In this document: one piece after another, positions 18,571 through 55,158 of the stretch
How the letters are laid out: every line of letters starts with the position of its first letter
Numbering within the stretch: position 1 is the stretch's first letter
Assembly (NCBI GenBank): GCA_016887505.1
Contig: CP069393.1
Location: 248,001 to 312,000, forward strand
Origin: Clostridia bacterium
GTDB taxonomy: Bacteria; Bacillota; TC1; UBA5767
Direction of reading: 5' to 3'
DNA: 64,000 bases
Made by a program: the position numbers and the translations under genes
Notes under the pieces: model-generated
Database searches by the model: none
The model's input: the letters and a program-made list of their open reading frames with translations, nothing else
What the model was told of the DNA's origin: nothing

Positions 18571-19026
18571 ATGGCTAATAAATCAAATAGCTTATCGCAC
18601 ACCAAGTGGATGTGCAAATATCATATCGTATTTACACCTAAGTATAGACGAAAGATAATCTTCAATCAATATAAAGAGAGTTTGCGTGAGATAATTCGAG
18701 ACTTGTGCAAATACAAGGGTGTAGAGATTATCGAGGGCGAGCTGATGCCAGATCATGTTCATTTGCTAGTGAGCATTCCGCCGAAGATGAGTGTGTCGAG
18801 CTTTATGGGATATTTAAAGGGGAAAAGTGCCTTGATGATATTCGATAGACATGCAAATCTGAAATACAAGTTCGGGAATAGACACTTCTGGTCACAAGGA
18901 TATTACGTGACTACAGTAGGCCTAAATGAAGCGACAATTAAGAAGTATATACGGGAACAGGAAAAGCAGGATATTCTGTTGGATAAACTGAGCGTGAAAG
19001 AGTACAAGGACCCGTTTAAGAATTAG
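18571..19026 (+). CDS. tnpA: IS200/IS605-family transposase TnpA
   Basis: 151 residues of the Y1 HUH single-strand transposase family. The metal-binding HUH motif is HVHLLV (about residues 64-69), and the catalytic tyrosine is in EATIKKYIREQ (about 132). The N-terminal segment KYHIVFTPKYRRKII and the VTTVG strand are typical. It acts on single-stranded ends that fold into the subterminal hairpins seen on both sides. Length and frame are complete. Confidence 0.96.
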   Translation: MANKSNSLSHTKWMCKYHIVFTPKYRRKIIFNQYKESLREIIRDLCKYKGVEIIEGELMPDHVHLLVSIPPKMSVSSFMGYLKGKSALMIFDRHANLKYKFGNRHFWSQGYYVTTVGLNEATIKKYIREQEKQDILLDKLSVKEYKDPFKN

Positions 19027-20689: not shown

Positions 20690-20729
20690 AAGGTAAAAAA
20701 GATCCCTGTAAGAAGCGTCTTACAGGGAC
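20690..20729 (-). terminator. Terminator of the isochorismatase-fold gene
   Basis: On the minus strand TCCCTGTAAGA pairs with TCTTACAGGGA around CGCT and runs into TCTTTTTT. Confidence 0.88.
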
Positions 20730-20756: not shown

Positions 20757-21455
20757 TTAGTTTGCTTTTTCCAGGGCTTCGAATAGTTCTTCAGTGTTAA
20801 TCACATGGCAGTAAATGTTATTCAAAATTTCTAATTCGTGATTTTGTATTTCTTGAGTGGCTGCCATACAAGCGTCTTCAACCAAATAAACTCGGAAACT
20901 TTCATCTGCTAAGCTTCGTACACTGCAGGACACACATTGATCCGTAAACAAGCCAGTTACAATCACTGTGTCGATTTCCATATTTCTAAGAATAAGCCGT
21001 AGATTAGTTCCTGTGAGGGCGCTGTCTGTGGTTTTCATGACGACAATTTCATCTTTTTGTGGCGTAAGTTCATCAATTATTTCCCCTTGTTTATCGCCAA
21101 TAGGAAGATATAGGTTGTTGAATCCACTTTCTTTTTGAACGAGGGAACGGTCGCGGCCACTTTCTTTTAGACAGGTGATTCGAGCAAAAATGACCTCCAT
21201 ATTCATTTTTCTAAAATGTGTAAGAATTCTTTGGTTATTCGGAATGACCACATCATCTACCGTTTGGTAGAAGGGCTCCCAACGTGTTTGCTCTTTCAGT
21301 GCGGCAGCGTCTAATTGCTCACTAGGTGTTCTTTTAGCAAAAAAGTTCTGCATGTCTATGATGAGTAATGCGGTCTTGTGCGGCTCAATATTAATTTCAC
21401 CATACTCTTTGTCATCTTGATAGTAGAATGATACATGCCTGTCATTAACTCTCAT
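20757..21455 (-). CDS. Isochorismatase-family cysteine hydrolase
   Basis: 232 residues with the catalytic triad of the family: Asp in LLIIDMQNFF, Lys in EIVVMKTTDSAL and Cys in LFTDQCVSCSVRSLADESF. The cis-peptide region VTGLFTDQC is intact. Members hydrolyse small amides or vinyl ethers (nicotinamide, isochorismate, biuret, N-carbamoylsarcosine). The loops do not clearly match any one of these, so the substrate is open. I prefer the ATG at 21455, which has AGAGAGG at 8 bases; the ATG two codons earlier is only two bases from it. The terminator at 20690 ends the unit. Confidence 0.85.
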   Translation of the reverse strand: MRVNDRHVSFYYQDDKEYGEINIEPHKTALLIIDMQNFFAKRTPSEQLDAAALKEQTRWEPFYQTVDDVVIPNNQRILTHFRKMNMEVIFARITCLKESGRDRSLVQKESGFNNLYLPIGDKQGEIIDELTPQKDEIVVMKTTDSALTGTNLRLILRNMEIDTVIVTGLFTDQCVSCSVRSLADESFRVYLVEDACMAATQEIQNHELEILNNIYCHVINTEELFEALEKAN

Positions 21456-21599
21456 TTTCATATCCTCTCTTCAATCAATTTTCACTTCTACATCTATATT
21501 TTACAGTGAATGTTCTCTATGAACCATGAAGAAGAATGCTTAAAAGTTAACGATTTCTGCATACCTTACGAGAATAGCTGTATTCATAATTGCTTGGCT

Positions 21600-22790
21600 T
21601 TACGCCTTCGATTCAGGTGGTGCCAGTAGTTTCATATAGAGCTTATCCACACCGATTGCTCCAATAGGTGCGCTGATGATAATGGCCATTACGGCAACAG
21701 CCAATATTGTATCACCAGCAGCAACGCCTGCAGCTAAGGGAATAGAGCCAATTGCAGCTTGTACGGTTGCCTTGGGTAGATAGGCTACAGAACAAAAAAG
21801 TCGTTCCTTGAGATTTAATCGGGATTTAATCAGGCAGATATTGACTCCTAGCATCCGGAAAGCTAAGGCACTAACAATAAGTAGGATTGAAGCTAAACCT
21901 GCAGTACGTATCGTACCGATATCTACTTCTGCGCCAACTAAAACGAAAAGGAGAATTTCTGCAGCTACCCAGATTTTTCCGAATTTGCCCATAAGACGAT
22001 TTGCAAGAATTTCATAGTGCTCCCGGATGGTTCCGCTTAGAGCCATAACAGCAAGCAGGGCTGAGAAGGGAACATAGGGCTTTGCGATTGCTTCCAACGT
22101 GACCAAAAGAAAAGATATGCTTAGAATTAAGAGTACCTTTACCGTATCGCGCATATGAAAGATGCGGAAGAATTTTTGCATTAGGAATCCAAGAAATATG
22201 CCGAAAGCCAGCCCTAGGATGACTGATAGAGGAACCTTAAATAAGCTCATTGGAGAAAAACCAGCTCCCTGATACATACCAAGAAAAGAGGTAAAAAGAA
22301 TGATTACATAAATATCGTCCACGCTTGCGCCAGCCATAATCAATTGGGGAATGGCTTTATCTTTTCCGTAACCAGATTCTATAAGATTAATCATACGTGG
22401 AACCACCACGGCAGGAGATACAGCAGCAACAACAGCGCCCAGTATGGCTGCTTCAATCCGGGTAACACCTAGCAGTATGGGAGCCAAAAGAATGATGGCG
22501 CCAATCTCGAAGCTGGCAGGAATGAAACTCATTAGGATGGCTGGCCTGCCGACCTTTTTGAGGTCCCTTAAATCGAGAGAAAGACCTGCCCGGATCAGGA
22601 TAACAATGAGGGCCATTTCTCGAAGGTCTGCTGATATATGAAGCATATCTGGTGAAATAAGATTTAATACATATGGTCCCAGAAGAATCCCGGTGGCAAG
22701 CATGCCTAAGAGGCCCGGAAGAGCCAATTTTTTGAATATTTCACTTAGTGAAAAACCTAGTAGGGTAATGAGTGCAATACTAAATAGCAT
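21600..22790 (-). CDS. CPA-type cation/proton antiporter homologue under a fluoride riboswitch
   Basis: 396 residues and about 12 membrane segments of the monovalent cation:proton antiporter superfamily. Visible features are the N-terminal FKKLALPGLLGMLATGILLGPYVL, the unwound region VSPAVVVPRMINL, and the transport-site AGASVDDIYVIILFT with an Asp-Asp pair. AGGAGG is seven bases ahead of the ATG. The leader is a fluoride (crcB-motif) riboswitch with a terminator, so the protein is expected to be made when fluoride rises. CPA proteins behind this riboswitch are known as candidate fluoride/proton antiporters, the likeliest role here; plain Na+/H+ exchange is the alternative. Confidence 0.88.
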   Translation of the reverse strand: MLFSIALITLLGFSLSEIFKKLALPGLLGMLATGILLGPYVLNLISPDMLHISADLREMALIVILIRAGLSLDLRDLKKVGRPAILMSFIPASFEIGAIILLAPILLGVTRIEAAILGAVVAAVSPAVVVPRMINLIESGYGKDKAIPQLIMAGASVDDIYVIILFTSFLGMYQGAGFSPMSLFKVPLSVILGLAFGIFLGFLMQKFFRIFHMRDTVKVLLILSISFLLVTLEAIAKPYVPFSALLAVMALSGTIREHYEILANRLMGKFGKIWVAAEILLFVLVGAEVDIGTIRTAGLASILLIVSALAFRMLGVNICLIKSRLNLKERLFCSVAYLPKATVQAAIGSIPLAAGVAAGDTILAVAVMAIIISAPIGAIGVDKLYMKLLAPPESKA

Positions 22791-22814
22791 ATGTAATCCT
22801 CCTTGAAACAGGGC

Positions 22815-22912
22815 AAAAAAAAGCTGAAGATTCCTGTGAATTCGTCACAGAAGTCATCAGCTTGTATAAGCGGTTTAAGCCGTAGCTAAGGGAGAACCTC
22901 ATTCCCTTCGCT
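22815..22912 (-). ncRNA. Fluoride riboswitch (crcB motif) with transcription terminator
   Basis: Read on the minus strand, GGGA-AUGAGGUUC-UCCC forms P1 with its loop. AGCU..AGCU around CGG/CCG forms the second helix. The downstream GCUGAUGACUUCU matches the conserved 3' segment, whose GACUUC can pair with loop GAGGUU as the pseudoknot. This agrees with the known aptamer pattern, in which an AUGAGG loop pairs with GAUGGCCUCU. The same 3' segment is the 5' arm of a terminator (22863-22823) followed by eight T (22822-22815), so ligand binding should block termination. Transcription starts almost at the aptamer. Confidence 0.88.
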
Positions 22913-22914
22913 AG

Positions 22915-22943
22915 ATAATACCATATACCTATGAGCTGGACAA
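22915..22943 (-). promoter_or_regulatory. Promoter of the riboswitch-antiporter unit
   Basis: On the minus strand TTGTCC (22943-22938), a 17-base spacer and TATTAT (22920-22915). The start site near 22908 is at the first bases of the aptamer. Confidence 0.75.
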
Positions 22944-23262
22944 GATTGGATTTGGTTTTCGTATAAAAATAATGGCCTTATTGAGATAACGCAATTTGCT
23001 ATGGCATGTACTAAAAAGTTTAGTAGTGGGGCTTGGAAGGAGAAACAGAGCTAGCCGTCGAAAGGTTACTGTCATAGAGGATTCGAATATGGTTAGGCTT
23101 GAAAGGCTAATGGCGGTTTAAACCATTTATAGAATTGGAACATAGTTCGGCTTTGTGCGTCAAAATATATAGTAATGACTAAAGACAAGACACAAGAAAA
23201 TCTAAACATTTACAGGTAGTTCGACTCAGATTCTTTTGATGAACCGATGGGAGGGAAGAATT
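22944..23262 (+). other. Intergenic region between divergent units
   Basis: No coding frame or RNA that I recognise. GGGAGGG at 23250-23256 is the ribosome site of the beta-propeller gene. A promoter for that gene must lie here, but no close consensus match stands out. Confidence 0.4.
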
Positions 23263-25518
23263 ATGAAAAAGTTACTTTTGTGTTTTTTGATGGCCATGCT
23301 GATGTTTACTTTGGGTGCAACGACCTACCAAGATATTCAGGTGGAACTTGATGGTGAGATTGTTGAATTCGATGTGCAGCCGATACTAACGAATGGTCGA
23401 GTGTTGGTTCCCTTCCGTAAGATTTTTGAGGAACTAGGTCTTCGAGTTGACTGGAATAATGAATTGAAAATTGCCTCCGCTTATAACGAAGACGATACGT
23501 TAGCGATCAAAGCAGACAGCGGCTTTGCTAGTATAAATGGCGAGATGTTTGATTTGGATGTCCCAGCGGGTATTCGTGATGGGAGGATGCTGGTTCCACT
23601 TCGTTTTATTTCAGAATCATTCCAAAATCAGGTTGATTGGGATGAAACAAATGGAATGGTTCGGATTAAATCTGGGACAGGTCCGGCTAAAATGCTAAAA
23701 GATTTGCCAATAGTCGGCAGTCGAGAGAGACTAGTGTCTATCTTGGAGTATGCAGATAAGAACAGCCAATACGAAGTATTTCATACAGGTATGGTCTTAG
23801 AAGAGGCAACAAAGTCTGAAGATATGATCGCAAATACGCCCGCGCCTAGTGCAACGGATGATGCTGCAGGAACTACTGATTTTTCTGAAACCAACGTTCA
23901 GGTTAGTGGGGTCGATGAAGCAGATATTGTAAAAACTGACGGAGAATACATCTATCATATTCGAACTAGTGCAAATCAAATTGCCATATCCAAGGTGGAT
24001 GGAGATGCGATTCTTCAAACTAGCAAACTTGAACTAGATGAAGGTTTTACTGCAAGGGAGATGTATTATTCTAAGGATAAGCTTATCGTGGTCGGTGTAA
24101 CAGATAGGCCGTATTATCTCTATGAGCCCATGCTGGCAGAGGCAGGGCTCAAATCCACAAGGAGTGGGTCTTCACTCAAAGTGCTGATTTATGATGTTTC
24201 GAATCGTATGGAACCTGAGGAGGAAAGGACGATTGAGTTGGAAGGCTCGTATATAACGTCGCGATTACTAGAAGACAAGTTCTACTTGGTTGCCAATCAG
24301 TATTTTTATCCTAGTTATTTAGATAAACAAACAGAATCTATGCCAGCAATATTTGATAGCTTGATGGGTGAAGAACGCTCGATTGGATATGATGAAATAC
24401 GTTATTTTCCAGGTAGTGTGGAGAGTAATTTCCTGATTACGCTTGGTTTAGACATCGGTGCAAAAGATAAAGAGGCTGACGTGGACGTTTACCTTGGCTC
24501 AGGTCAGAGTGTTTACGTTTCGCAACAAAATATGTATGTGGCGTATACTAGCTATGATTACTATTATGATTCGGACAATAGCGGTACAGAAGAATTATAT
24601 TTCCCAGTATATGAGTTAAATACAGAAGTATTTAAGTTTGCGATAGAAGATGGAAATATTAGCTATGAAACCAAGGGCAAGGTGCCTGGAACAATTTTAA
24701 ACCAATTTTCCATGGACGAATACAAAGGGAATTTTCGCATTGCTACAACAACGGGGGATTCTTGGCGTACCGATGAACAAACCTCCAAAAATAATTTGTA
24801 TATGCTAGATGAAGACTTACATATTATCGGTGATTTGGAAGGTTTGGCTCCTACAGAAAGAATATATGCAGTACGTTTCATGGGTGATAGAGCCTATATG
24901 GTAACGTTCCGACAAGTTGACCCTTTTTATGTGATCGATTTGTCTAACCCTCAGAGCCCACAGGTTTTGGGATATCTGAAGATACCAGGTTTTAGTGATT
25001 ATTTACATCCCTATGATGAAAACCATATCATCGGTTTTGGAAAGGATACCGAAGAAACCAAATGGGGAACGAGTATTGCTGGTATGAAAATTGGCTTATT
25101 CGATGTAACCGATGTAGAAAACCCCATTGAGAAGGATACGGTGGTTATTGGGGATAGTGGTTCTTATTCTGAACTATTGGATAATCATAAGGCTCTTCTT
25201 TTTTCAAAAGAAAAATCTCTAATGGCTTTTCCCATTACTGTAATGCAGGAAAATTCTGAAAATTGGAGTAGCTTTGAATTTCAAGGTGCATATGTTTTTC
25301 ATATAGATCCTGAACGGGGCTTTGAATTGAAAGGGAAGGCGACTCATTTGAGTAGTCAAGATTATAAGACAGCAGGTGATTATTGGTATAATAGTGTGAA
25401 GAATATCCGGAGAATCATCTACATAGGAGATTACCTTTACACCTTATCTGACTATCAGATTCAAGCACATGATATGGATGATGTTTCCATTCAGGGGACT
25501 ATGAAGTACGAGCAATAA
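23263..25518 (+). CDS. Secreted beta-propeller protein with copper-amine-oxidase-like N-terminal domain
   Basis: 751 residues with a signal peptide (1-21, ending LGATT). Residues 25-145 are a copper amine oxidase N-terminal-like module (VELDGEIVEFDVQPILTNG, VLVPFRKIFEELGLRVDWN, MLVPLRFISESF). From about 220 on the protein matches the secreted beta-propeller family COG4880: VQVSGVDEADIVKTDGEYIYHI is its hallmark, followed by repeated blades such as PFYVIDLSNPQSPQVLGYLKIPGFSDYLHPYDENHI. Family members are exported and mostly uncharacterised; they are thought to be surface proteins. ATG 23263 follows GGGAGGGAAG. Single-gene unit with its own terminator. Confidence 0.87.
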   Translation: MKKLLLCFLMAMLMFTLGATTYQDIQVELDGEIVEFDVQPILTNGRVLVPFRKIFEELGLRVDWNNELKIASAYNEDDTLAIKADSGFASINGEMFDLDVPAGIRDGRMLVPLRFISESFQNQVDWDETNGMVRIKSGTGPAKMLKDLPIVGSRERLVSILEYADKNSQYEVFHTGMVLEEATKSEDMIANTPAPSATDDAAGTTDFSETNVQVSGVDEADIVKTDGEYIYHIRTSANQIAISKVDGDAILQTSKLELDEGFTAREMYYSKDKLIVVGVTDRPYYLYEPMLAEAGLKSTRSGSSLKVLIYDVSNRMEPEEERTIELEGSYITSRLLEDKFYLVANQYFYPSYLDKQTESMPAIFDSLMGEERSIGYDEIRYFPGSVESNFLITLGLDIGAKDKEADVDVYLGSGQSVYVSQQNMYVAYTSYDYYYDSDNSGTEELYFPVYELNTEVFKFAIEDGNISYETKGKVPGTILNQFSMDEYKGNFRIATTTGDSWRTDEQTSKNNLYMLDEDLHIIGDLEGLAPTERIYAVRFMGDRAYMVTFRQVDPFYVIDLSNPQSPQVLGYLKIPGFSDYLHPYDENHIIGFGKDTEETKWGTSIAGMKIGLFDVTDVENPIEKDTVVIGDSGSYSELLDNHKALLFSKEKSLMAFPITVMQENSENWSSFEFQGAYVFHIDPERGFELKGKATHLSSQDYKTAGDYWYNSVKNIRRIIYIGDYLYTLSDYQIQAHDMDDVSIQGTMKYEQ

Positions 25519-53637: not shown

Positions 53638-53969
53638 TATGATCTTGAGTGTTTCAAGGATATTGCCAAACCACAAAATGAGATAGTAGGGGTATATTTG
53701 TGGGCCTAAAAAATTAAGATATACATTACCAGCCTAGTTGTGGTATAATTCTATATCGCAACAGTATAGTTGAATTGGAAAAAGCTCTTTATAGATTTAT
53801 TTTGCTGATTGTGGGTCTTGTGTTTTGTATTTTTGAAATCGGTAGCGAAGGATGCCAGACCTGTAGTAGAGAATTCACCTAGTAAACCAGTAAAGGATTA
53901 GCCTAAGAAGAAATTGTAGATAAAAGTTGGTCATTTTTACCAATGGATAAAAAAGAATAAAAATAGAAA
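53638..53969 (+). other. Intergenic region upstream of the c-di-GMP riboswitch
   Basis: No supported gene. A TATAAT near 53744 could be a -10 element, but the riboswitch lies more than 200 bases further on. A 35-codon TTG-started frame at 53775-53882 has no ribosome site and is not called. Confidence 0.4.
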
Positions 53970-54041
53970 AGGCAAACCTAGCGAAAGCTAGGGACGCAAA
54001 ACCACGGGCCTAATGCTTTCGCTATGGTCGCCGGGTCGCCG
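53970..54041 (+). ncRNA. c-di-GMP-I (GEMM) riboswitch
   Basis: The aptamer is recognisable by GGCAAACC, a first helix CCTAGC-GAAA-GCTAGG with a GNRA tetraloop, the joining GACGCAAA, then CCACGGGCC..., and the closing GGTCGCCGGGTCGCC. It is followed 27 bases later by a strong terminator (54068-54099), so c-di-GMP should control read-through into the HD-GYP gene. Confidence 0.93.
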
Positions 54042-54067
54042 AGGACAAGTAGGTATGTAATACGTTG

Positions 54068-54099
54068 GAGTTTTCTGGTGATCAGAAAACTCTTTTTTT
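54068..54099 (+). terminator. Riboswitch-controlled terminator
   Basis: GAGTTTTCTG / CAGAAAACTC stem, five-base loop and seven T. The 5' flank TACGTTGGAG may pair with part of the aptamer's 3' end in the alternative state. Confidence 0.88.
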
Positions 54100-54174
54100 G
54101 TGGGGCAAAACAATATTGAGTTAATTGATATTTTGAATTTAGTAAAGGACAATATAGGGGGCAATCGAAGAATA

Positions 54175-55158
54175 ATGGATAATAGTACATATTTTCAGGT
54201 GTTGGACAATATCTCAGTTGGCTATGCTTGCCACCAACGTATTGATGATGGACAAGATGATGACTTTCAGTATGAGATTATTGAAACCAATCAAGAATTT
54301 GAAGAAATAACCGGGATTAGCCATGATGAAGCAATTGGGCTAGATAGTTCATTTATCCTTGGTGGAGTAGAAAAAAATAACGGGAGCTGTCGTGAAACCC
54401 ATATCGCAACACATTATTATGCGCAAAAGGTAGAAACCAAGCTATATTCGGAAACACGGGGAAAGTGGTTCAGGGTCAGCGCGTTTCGTATTAAGGATGA
54501 CTATATTGTCACGACTCTGACAGAGTCTACTGCAGGTGAGGAGGATAAATCCTTTTTTATTCGTGAAAAGCAGATAATAGATTATGGCGATATTTTTCTA
54601 AATACCATGATGGCTGCTTTTTTTGAAAAGAGTAGTTTCGAGATGCTACATGCTAGACGAGTTGGCAGGCTAAGTGAACTAATTGGCTTGAAAATGCAGG
54701 ATCAGCAGATGAATGTGACAAGATTAAAGCAAGCAGGCATGCTGCACGATATTGGGAAAATCGCAGTTAGTAGTGAAATCTTAAATAAAAGAGGAGCACT
54801 TACCAAAGAAGATGAAAGTTTGCTTAAGTCTCACAGCAAACGAGGGTTTAGGATACTTAGCAATAGTATAATTTTTTCTGATATTGCAGATATTGTTTAT
54901 ATGCATCACGAAAGACTCGATGGGAGCGGTTTTCCTAGGGCATTGAAGGCAGGACAGATACCCAAGGAGGCCTGTATCATAGCCGTAGCAGAAGCCTACG
55001 ACAACATGACTTCATATAGACCCTATAAAGCTAGCATGGAAGCACAAGAAGCACTAGATACAATAAAGAAACAAGCTGGTACAAAATATGACGCCGACGT
55101 TGTGGATGTGCTTTGGGATATTGTACAAAATGACCAATGGAGTAGTATGAGTATCTAG
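54175..55158 (+). CDS. PAS-HD-GYP domain protein (probable c-di-GMP phosphodiesterase)
   Basis: 327 residues. Residues 5-120 look like a PAS sensor (VLDNISVGYACHQRI...YEIIETNQEFEEITGISHDEAIG). Residues 145-325 form an HD-GYP domain with the metal ligands in HARRVGRLSELIG, AGMLHDIGKIAV and MHHERLDGSGFPRAL, where the classic GYP reads GFP. It should degrade c-di-GMP. The upstream c-di-GMP riboswitch makes this a direct feedback circuit. I prefer the ATG at 54175, with AGGGGGC 13 bases upstream; a GTG at 54100 would begin on the terminator's T-run. Confidence 0.88.
   Translation: MDNSTYFQVLDNISVGYACHQRIDDGQDDDFQYEIIETNQEFEEITGISHDEAIGLDSSFILGGVEKNNGSCRETHIATHYYAQKVETKLYSETRGKWFRVSAFRIKDDYIVTTLTESTAGEEDKSFFIREKQIIDYGDIFLNTMMAAFFEKSSFEMLHARRVGRLSELIGLKMQDQQMNVTRLKQAGMLHDIGKIAVSSEILNKRGALTKEDESLLKSHSKRGFRILSNSIIFSDIADIVYMHHERLDGSGFPRALKAGQIPKEACIIAVAEAYDNMTSYRPYKASMEAQEALDTIKKQAGTKYDADVVDVLWDIVQNDQWSSMSI

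Follow-up and report, generated by a model that had tools for sequence, protein, structure and literature searches.

Bacterial fluoride export is described, in reviews and papers up to 2024-2026, in terms of two exporters, Fluc (CrcB) and CLC-F, with Na+/H+ antiporters linked to fluoride riboswitches regarded as pH helpers. Fluc and CLC-F are mutually exclusive, with an overlap of ~3% (PMC11139923); the same paper, citing Baker 2012, ranks Na+/H+ antiporters as the next most common genes under fluoride riboswitches after the exporters, and interprets them in terms of pH homeostasis. For a laboratory E. coli strain deleted for crcB, the review literature gives an MIC of about 1 mM, compared with 200 mM in the wild type. 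In C. difficile, a ClC and an NhaP gene (CD0656-7) follow one switch (PMC11477304), and the control of a CPA-type gene by a fluoride switch is already known and not new here. Among CPA proteins of known structure, mammalian NHA2 (SLC9B2) is an electroneutral Na+(Li+)/H+ exchanger whose ion site consists of two Asp, a Glu (TM4)-Arg pair, a Lys and a Thr (PMC8850199).

The DNA analysed here, a window of 64,000 nucleotides from the single-contig genome of a Clostridia bacterium, carries such a CPA gene behind a fluoride riboswitch. Across hundreds of genomes, antiporters of this type seem to stand in for the recognised exporters, and the protein may be an overlooked transporter for fluoride defence.

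Results

A fluoride riboswitch with an overlapping terminator

The Rfam scan of the window yielded one fluoride riboswitch (RF01734), which exceeds the gathering score of 34 with its 46.3 bits (E=1.2e-9), aligns with the covariance model over its full length (1-64 of 64) and is the sole copy in the 2.56-Mb genome, where no second RF01734 match was found (E=1.1e-11 genome-wide). This bears out the fluoride riboswitch proposed in the initial annotation, which had named the Rfam search as a check; the span given there, 22815-22912 in plus-strand numbering, does comprise aptamer plus terminator, but the element lies on the minus strand and its aptamer runs from 22915 to 22841. The parts of the unit are:

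22915-22943, minus strand: promoter-like site (TTGTCC, 17 nt, TATTAT, with an extended TG; consensus scan), ending at the 5' edge of the aptamer
22841-22915, minus strand: fluoride riboswitch aptamer (crcB motif; RF01734, covariation in 66 sequences)
22906-22903/22893-22890, minus strand: aptamer P1
22887-22885/22880-22878, minus strand: optional hairpin of the aptamer
22871-22868/22863-22860, minus strand: aptamer P3
22900-22896/22854-22850, minus strand: aptamer pseudoknot
22815-22863, minus strand: intrinsic terminator (hairpin 22863-22821, U8 22822-22815)
22797-22804, minus strand: ribosome-binding site AAGGAGGA, 6 nt before the ATG, read from the sequence
21600-22790, minus strand: CPA antiporter, NHA (SLC9B)-like, 396 aa (PF00999; NHA2 profile match; AlphaFold2 model)
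20757-21461, minus strand: isochorismatase-family hydrolase, possibly co-transcribed (PF00857)
20702-20729, minus strand: terminator-like hairpin closing the transcription unit (12-bp stem, then CTTTTTT)

The loop AUGAGGUUC and the 3'-terminal GAUGACUUCU, both present in the aptamer, had been singled out beforehand as potential pseudoknot partners, and they do form one, between GAGGU (22900-22896) and ACUUC (22854-22850). The 66 aptamers aligned comprise 64 from antiporter-family leaders or other fluoride switches at the same loci and two from CLC-F leaders; in this alignment, 97% of the pseudoknot cells are paired and four of its five pairs show compensatory changes; moreover, none of 500 shuffles is as good as the whole aptamer structure, and shifting the partners by one column lowers pairing from 95% to ~60% or less. 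Although the aptamer alone, with the pseudoknot left out, folds no better than shuffled sequences, a chance or decayed match that does not sense fluoride is very improbable in view of the score and genome-wide E value, the compensatory changes in both pseudoknot and helices, and the repetition of the arrangement in dozens of genomes. The leader RNA is almost certainly what it is predicted to be, a fluoride-responsive regulator of the antiporter gene.

The AAGCUGAUGACUUCUGUGA arm takes part in the terminator hairpin (-21 kcal/mol, z=-5.4), which is followed by eight U. As had been noticed from the letters of the leader, this terminator draws its 5' arm from the 3' part of the aptamer (the P3/pseudoknot strand), making expression platform and aptamer mutually exclusive. 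Of 60 riboswitch/antiporter leaders, one from the window and 59 from relatives, 58 keep the same overlap; a control that used 36 of the relatives' leaders found it in all 36 real sequences as opposed to 28 of 360 in which the first 30 downstream bases had been shuffled. Because of this shared strand, fluoride binding should block the terminator, so that by the established logic of the riboswitch class the switch should be of the ON type. In the absence of fluoride, the leader RNA would terminate ahead of the antiporter gene; once fluoride is bound, as a Mg-fluoride complex to judge from fluoride riboswitches of solved structure, the terminator's strand would be held by the pseudoknot and P3, and transcription would read through into the gene.

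The U tract is succeeded by AAGGAGGA and by the ATG at 22790, the distance from aptamer to start codon having a median of 53 nt over the window and 59 other loci. Promoter-like sites number eight in the region against 6.8 expected in the consensus scan, so that it is the position of the site at the aptamer edge, not its score, that carries the argument. At the other end of the unit, the flanks of 94 relatives contain no isochorismatase homologue beside the antiporter; this lack of conservation speaks against the hydrolase as a co-transcribed fluoride gene and places it probably outside the unit.

Other features of the window include the divergent neighbour of the riboswitch unit (23236-25518), a protein that looks secreted and combines a copper amine oxidase N-terminal domain with a beta-propeller domain; a c-di-GMP-I riboswitch (78.6 bits) immediately preceding an ORF that by eye resembles a PAS/HD-domain phosphodiesterase (53961-55158); and, also by eye, an IS200-type transposase-like ORF (18571-19026).

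The regulated gene encodes an NHA-like antiporter

The 396-aa product matches PF00999 with 140.6 bits (cut-off 26.2). It has no match to PF02537 (CrcB/Fluc) or PF00654 and lacks the motifs of the CLC-F signature (GNNLI/GMGLI, GREGT/V, GEVTP), in agreement with the earlier assignment of the gene to the CPA fold rather than to CrcB or CLC; it also fails to reach the cut-offs set for K+/H+ antiporters in NCBIfam (NF003716, potassium/proton antiporter, 65.4 against 355 bits). A profile built from five relatives places mammalian NHA2/SLC9B2 at the top of its PDB matches (5.8e-67), with NhaP far behind (8.8e-16), and the AlphaFold2 model (pLDDT 85.8) retrieves NHA2 as its first PDB match (7b4l, TM 0.82); mammalian NHA2/SLC9B2 are hence the nearest solved relatives.

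Residues E95, D158, D159, R312, K340 and T342 are identical to those of the NHA2 ion site and do not vary among the 96 family members compared, giving the protein both the DD site and the NHA2-specific Glu-Arg pair, Lys and Thr that characterise the NHA (SLC9B) clade. The Lys that pairs with the first Asp in electrogenic NapA/NhaA-type antiporters is absent and, as in NHA2, its place is taken by Arg312. The extra domain-swapped N-terminal helix of NHA2 is lacking, the profile alignment beginning at residue 23 of the query and 142 of NHA2, and the protein is therefore classed as NHA-like and not as an NHA2 orthologue. Judged by its sequence alone, it would be predicted to be an electroneutral Na+(Li+)/H+ exchanger. 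In one other genome (G240, locus L126), the antiporter match forms the N-terminal part of a reported frame of 2985 aa, either an unusual fusion or an effect of assembly.

Switch and antiporter are linked in most relatives

A GTDB scan gave at least 555 confirmed relatives, of which the best 80 were kept; these belong mostly to Bacillota, with a few from Spirochaetota and Bacteroidota. One homologue of the window protein comes from Lacrimispora celerecrescens (L032). Among these best 80, an RF01734 match at or above the gathering score lies directly upstream on the same strand in 59 and further upstream in two more, and 21 have no switch directly upstream. In a phylum sample of 249 genomes at least 95% complete, such a switch directly precedes the antiporter in 16 of the 20 genomes that have one. 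On the protein tree, the switch appears or disappears at least 17 times; such gain and loss inside a single antiporter clade rules out the riboswitch as the marker of one sub-clade.

At two loci the surroundings of the unit include further genes under fluoride switches: at L077:1720-5179, a NifU_N-like protein and a second conserved protein lie under a fluoride switch in a run that continues with UspA and the antiporter, and at L038:2049-3866 the same pair has its own switch and adjoins a switch-antiporter unit.

Antiporter carriers in the phylum sample lack CrcB

HMM searches of the genome that contains the window (99.2% complete, one contig) found no CrcB (PF02537) and no CLC of any kind (PF00654). 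In the phylum sample, the antiporter occurs in 20 genomes, CrcB in 118 and both in none, so that CrcB is found in 0 of 20 carriers and 118 of 229 others (Fisher p 1.3e-6, a test that ignores shared ancestry within groups and has no species tree behind it); 111 genomes have neither. Counted by genus, CrcB is present in 0 of 16 against 82 of 166 (p 4e-5); by family, with a total of 110 taken from the highest family code, the exclusion weakens to p 0.01, and lineage may account for part of it. Two families, f2 and f35, contain both genes, always in different genomes; in f35, G250 differs in this respect from G042 and G107. In a second set of 50 named carriers searched for CrcB, two possess it, a Parabacteroides (L049) and a Rikenellaceae MAG (L084), both from Bacteroidota.

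Of the 20 carriers, G014 alone has a CLC with the CLC-F signature, and no switch accompanies its antiporter. As candidates for hidden exporters, the CLCs found in G005 and in G006 were rejected for being of the canonical GSGIP chloride type, and the short ones of G053, G056, G068, G193 and G220 for lacking the CLC-F signature. In the flanks of the best 80 of the at least 555 relatives, no CrcB or CLC-F was found, the only CLC match (L047) being to a chloride-type query.

Within the class of the window genome there is usually one solution per genome: CrcB in G001, riboswitch-CLC-F in G003 and G004, and riboswitch-antiporter in G000, G002, G005 and G009. The CrcB of G001 (L013), the only one in the class, is a short frame with a TGA inside the match, lies beside transposase-like pieces and may be interrupted.

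Antiporter and CLC-F alternate at one chromosomal site

CLC-F is a proven F-/H+ antiporter, and in genus g3 it alternates with the CPA gene. G002 and G003 share the order NDK, FtsH, TilS, permease, pyrophosphatase and HD hydrolase, followed by a tRNA, an S1-domain protein, a DivIC-like protein and an amidohydrolase (names other than those of the searched genes were assigned by eye); the interval from HD hydrolase to tRNA contains riboswitch and antiporter in G002, and riboswitch and CLC-F in G003. In G004, a switch-CLC-F unit adjoins the same HD hydrolase and pyrophosphatase. With a tRNA next to it, the site may be a hotspot for insertions; this makes the case for antiporter and CLC-F doing the same job weaker without overturning it.

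A second CPA family follows fluoride switches

Inspection of fluoride-switch genomes without CrcB, recognised CLC-F or NHA-type antiporter revealed a Kef-like PF00999 protein behind the switch in six of them (G032, G151, G196, G214, G233 and G241; loci L194:274-3931, L195, L193, L197, L179 and L189). Its gene is usually followed by one for a universal stress protein and sometimes by one for a dynamin-like GTPase, and the Kef-like and NHA-type families are only distantly related. As the six were picked for lacking CrcB, they show the existence of such units, not exclusion. Dynamin-family GTPases also recur more generally directly behind fluoride riboswitches or in the same gene run (G038, G092, G214, G233 and G241; loci L181, L184, L185, L194, L195 and L196).

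Discussion

With moderate confidence, we interpret the locus as an ON riboswitch driving an NHA-clade CPA antiporter that acts as a stand-alone transporter for fluoride resistance, taking over the role of Fluc (CrcB) or CLC-F. That the antiporter substitutes for the known exporters is probable: a helper would be expected alongside exporters, and this protein instead replaces them with an exclusivity like that of Fluc and CLC-F, which argues for a stand-alone defence. The "pH-balancing partner" of an exporter suggested in the initial annotation accordingly fits poorly with a genome devoid of CrcB and CLC and with the exclusion in the phylum, and the lack of any CrcB or CLC-F match near the best 80 relatives speaks against the partner idea as well. 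Counting against replacement are the two Bacteroidota with both genes, the coexistence of antiporter and CLC-F in G014, the 21 of 80 relatives without a direct switch, and the repeated gain and loss of the switch on the tree.

What the antiporter moves is a matter on which two observations pull apart, the replacement pattern pointing to fluoride and the intact cation site away from it. The alternative suggestion of the initial annotation, a fluoride/proton antiporter, is a possible reading of the predicted protein that the replacement of exporters encourages; we infer that the antiporter would lower cytoplasmic fluoride and so confer resistance, most likely by letting fluoride out in exchange for protons, and fluoride as the transported ion is a plausible but tentative assignment. 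Against direct fluoride transport stands a predicted cation site kept to the letter of NHA2 in all 96 family members. To our knowledge, no CPA protein is a proven fluoride transporter, and none was found in the open-access literature.

The same ion-site residues and the fold match favour an ordinary NHA-type Na+(Li+)/H+ exchanger that would limit fluoride trapping or repair acidification, as a strategy alternative to export, and the pH homeostasis reading in PMC11139923 is in line with it. Fluoride would enter as HF and be trapped in proportion to the transmembrane pH difference; the induced exchanger could then reset cytoplasmic pH or, by admitting H+ for Na+ expelled, shrink that difference. 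A higher internal pH by itself would raise HF trapping, however, so that the direction of exchange would have to be the unusual one, and a helper should accompany exporters, yet the antiporter excludes CrcB and swaps with CLC-F at one site. An exchanger of this kind remains a credible, if lesser, possibility, and we slightly favour fluoride export over control of the pH gradient as the antiporter's role. It is unlikely that the exclusion is instead a by-product of lineage or niche, with an unrecognised exporter or little fluoride in the habitat and the antiporter as an accessory: the weaker family-level exclusion and the 111 genomes with neither gene would agree with this, but the swaps occur inside one order, one genus and family f35, and the switch is kept in most antiporter copies, which implies real exposure to fluoride.

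If the antiporter is itself the defence, as we prefer to think, the list of fluoride-resistance transporters grows and many genomes that now count as exporter-free are explained; a cation-exchange fold would then either carry fluoride or replace export through control of the pH gradient alone, and both outcomes would be informative. We put forward, tentatively, riboswitch-controlled CPA antiporters of the NHA type, perhaps joined independently by the Kef-like ones, as a third class of bacterial fluoride exporters alongside Fluc and CLC-F; if so, it would be used by hundreds of mainly anaerobic Bacillota so far counted as exporter-free. No published statement of the exporter-replacement behaviour was found in the open-access literature, although an earlier one may exist elsewhere.

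In comparison with known systems, the leader corresponds to the transcriptional ON type of RF01734 in its full-length model match, its pseudoknot and the terminator that overlaps the 3' part of the aptamer; it differs by an insert of 11 nt that separates P1 from the AACC-P3 part and forms the optional hairpin, which is common in the compared set and is not claimed to have functional significance. A CPA-type gene under a fluoride switch is shared with C. difficile CD0656-7 and with the Na+/H+ antiporters listed in PMC11139923, but the NhaP of C. difficile follows a ClC gene, whereas the antiporter of the window stands alone in a genome without CrcB or CLC. With NHA2/SLC9B2 (CPA2), the protein has in common its fold, ~34% identity in the structural alignment and all published ion-site residues; unlike NHA2, it is bacterial, is under fluoride control, has no counterpart of the long N-terminal part, and belongs to a family in which G81, L245, E278, G315 and V316 are conserved and replaced by other residues in NHA2. 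Finally, despite an unrelated fold, without PF00654 match or CLC-F signature, the antiporter shares with the CLC-F (EriC-F) fluoride/proton antiporters its regulator, its chromosomal site in sister species and its exclusion with Fluc.
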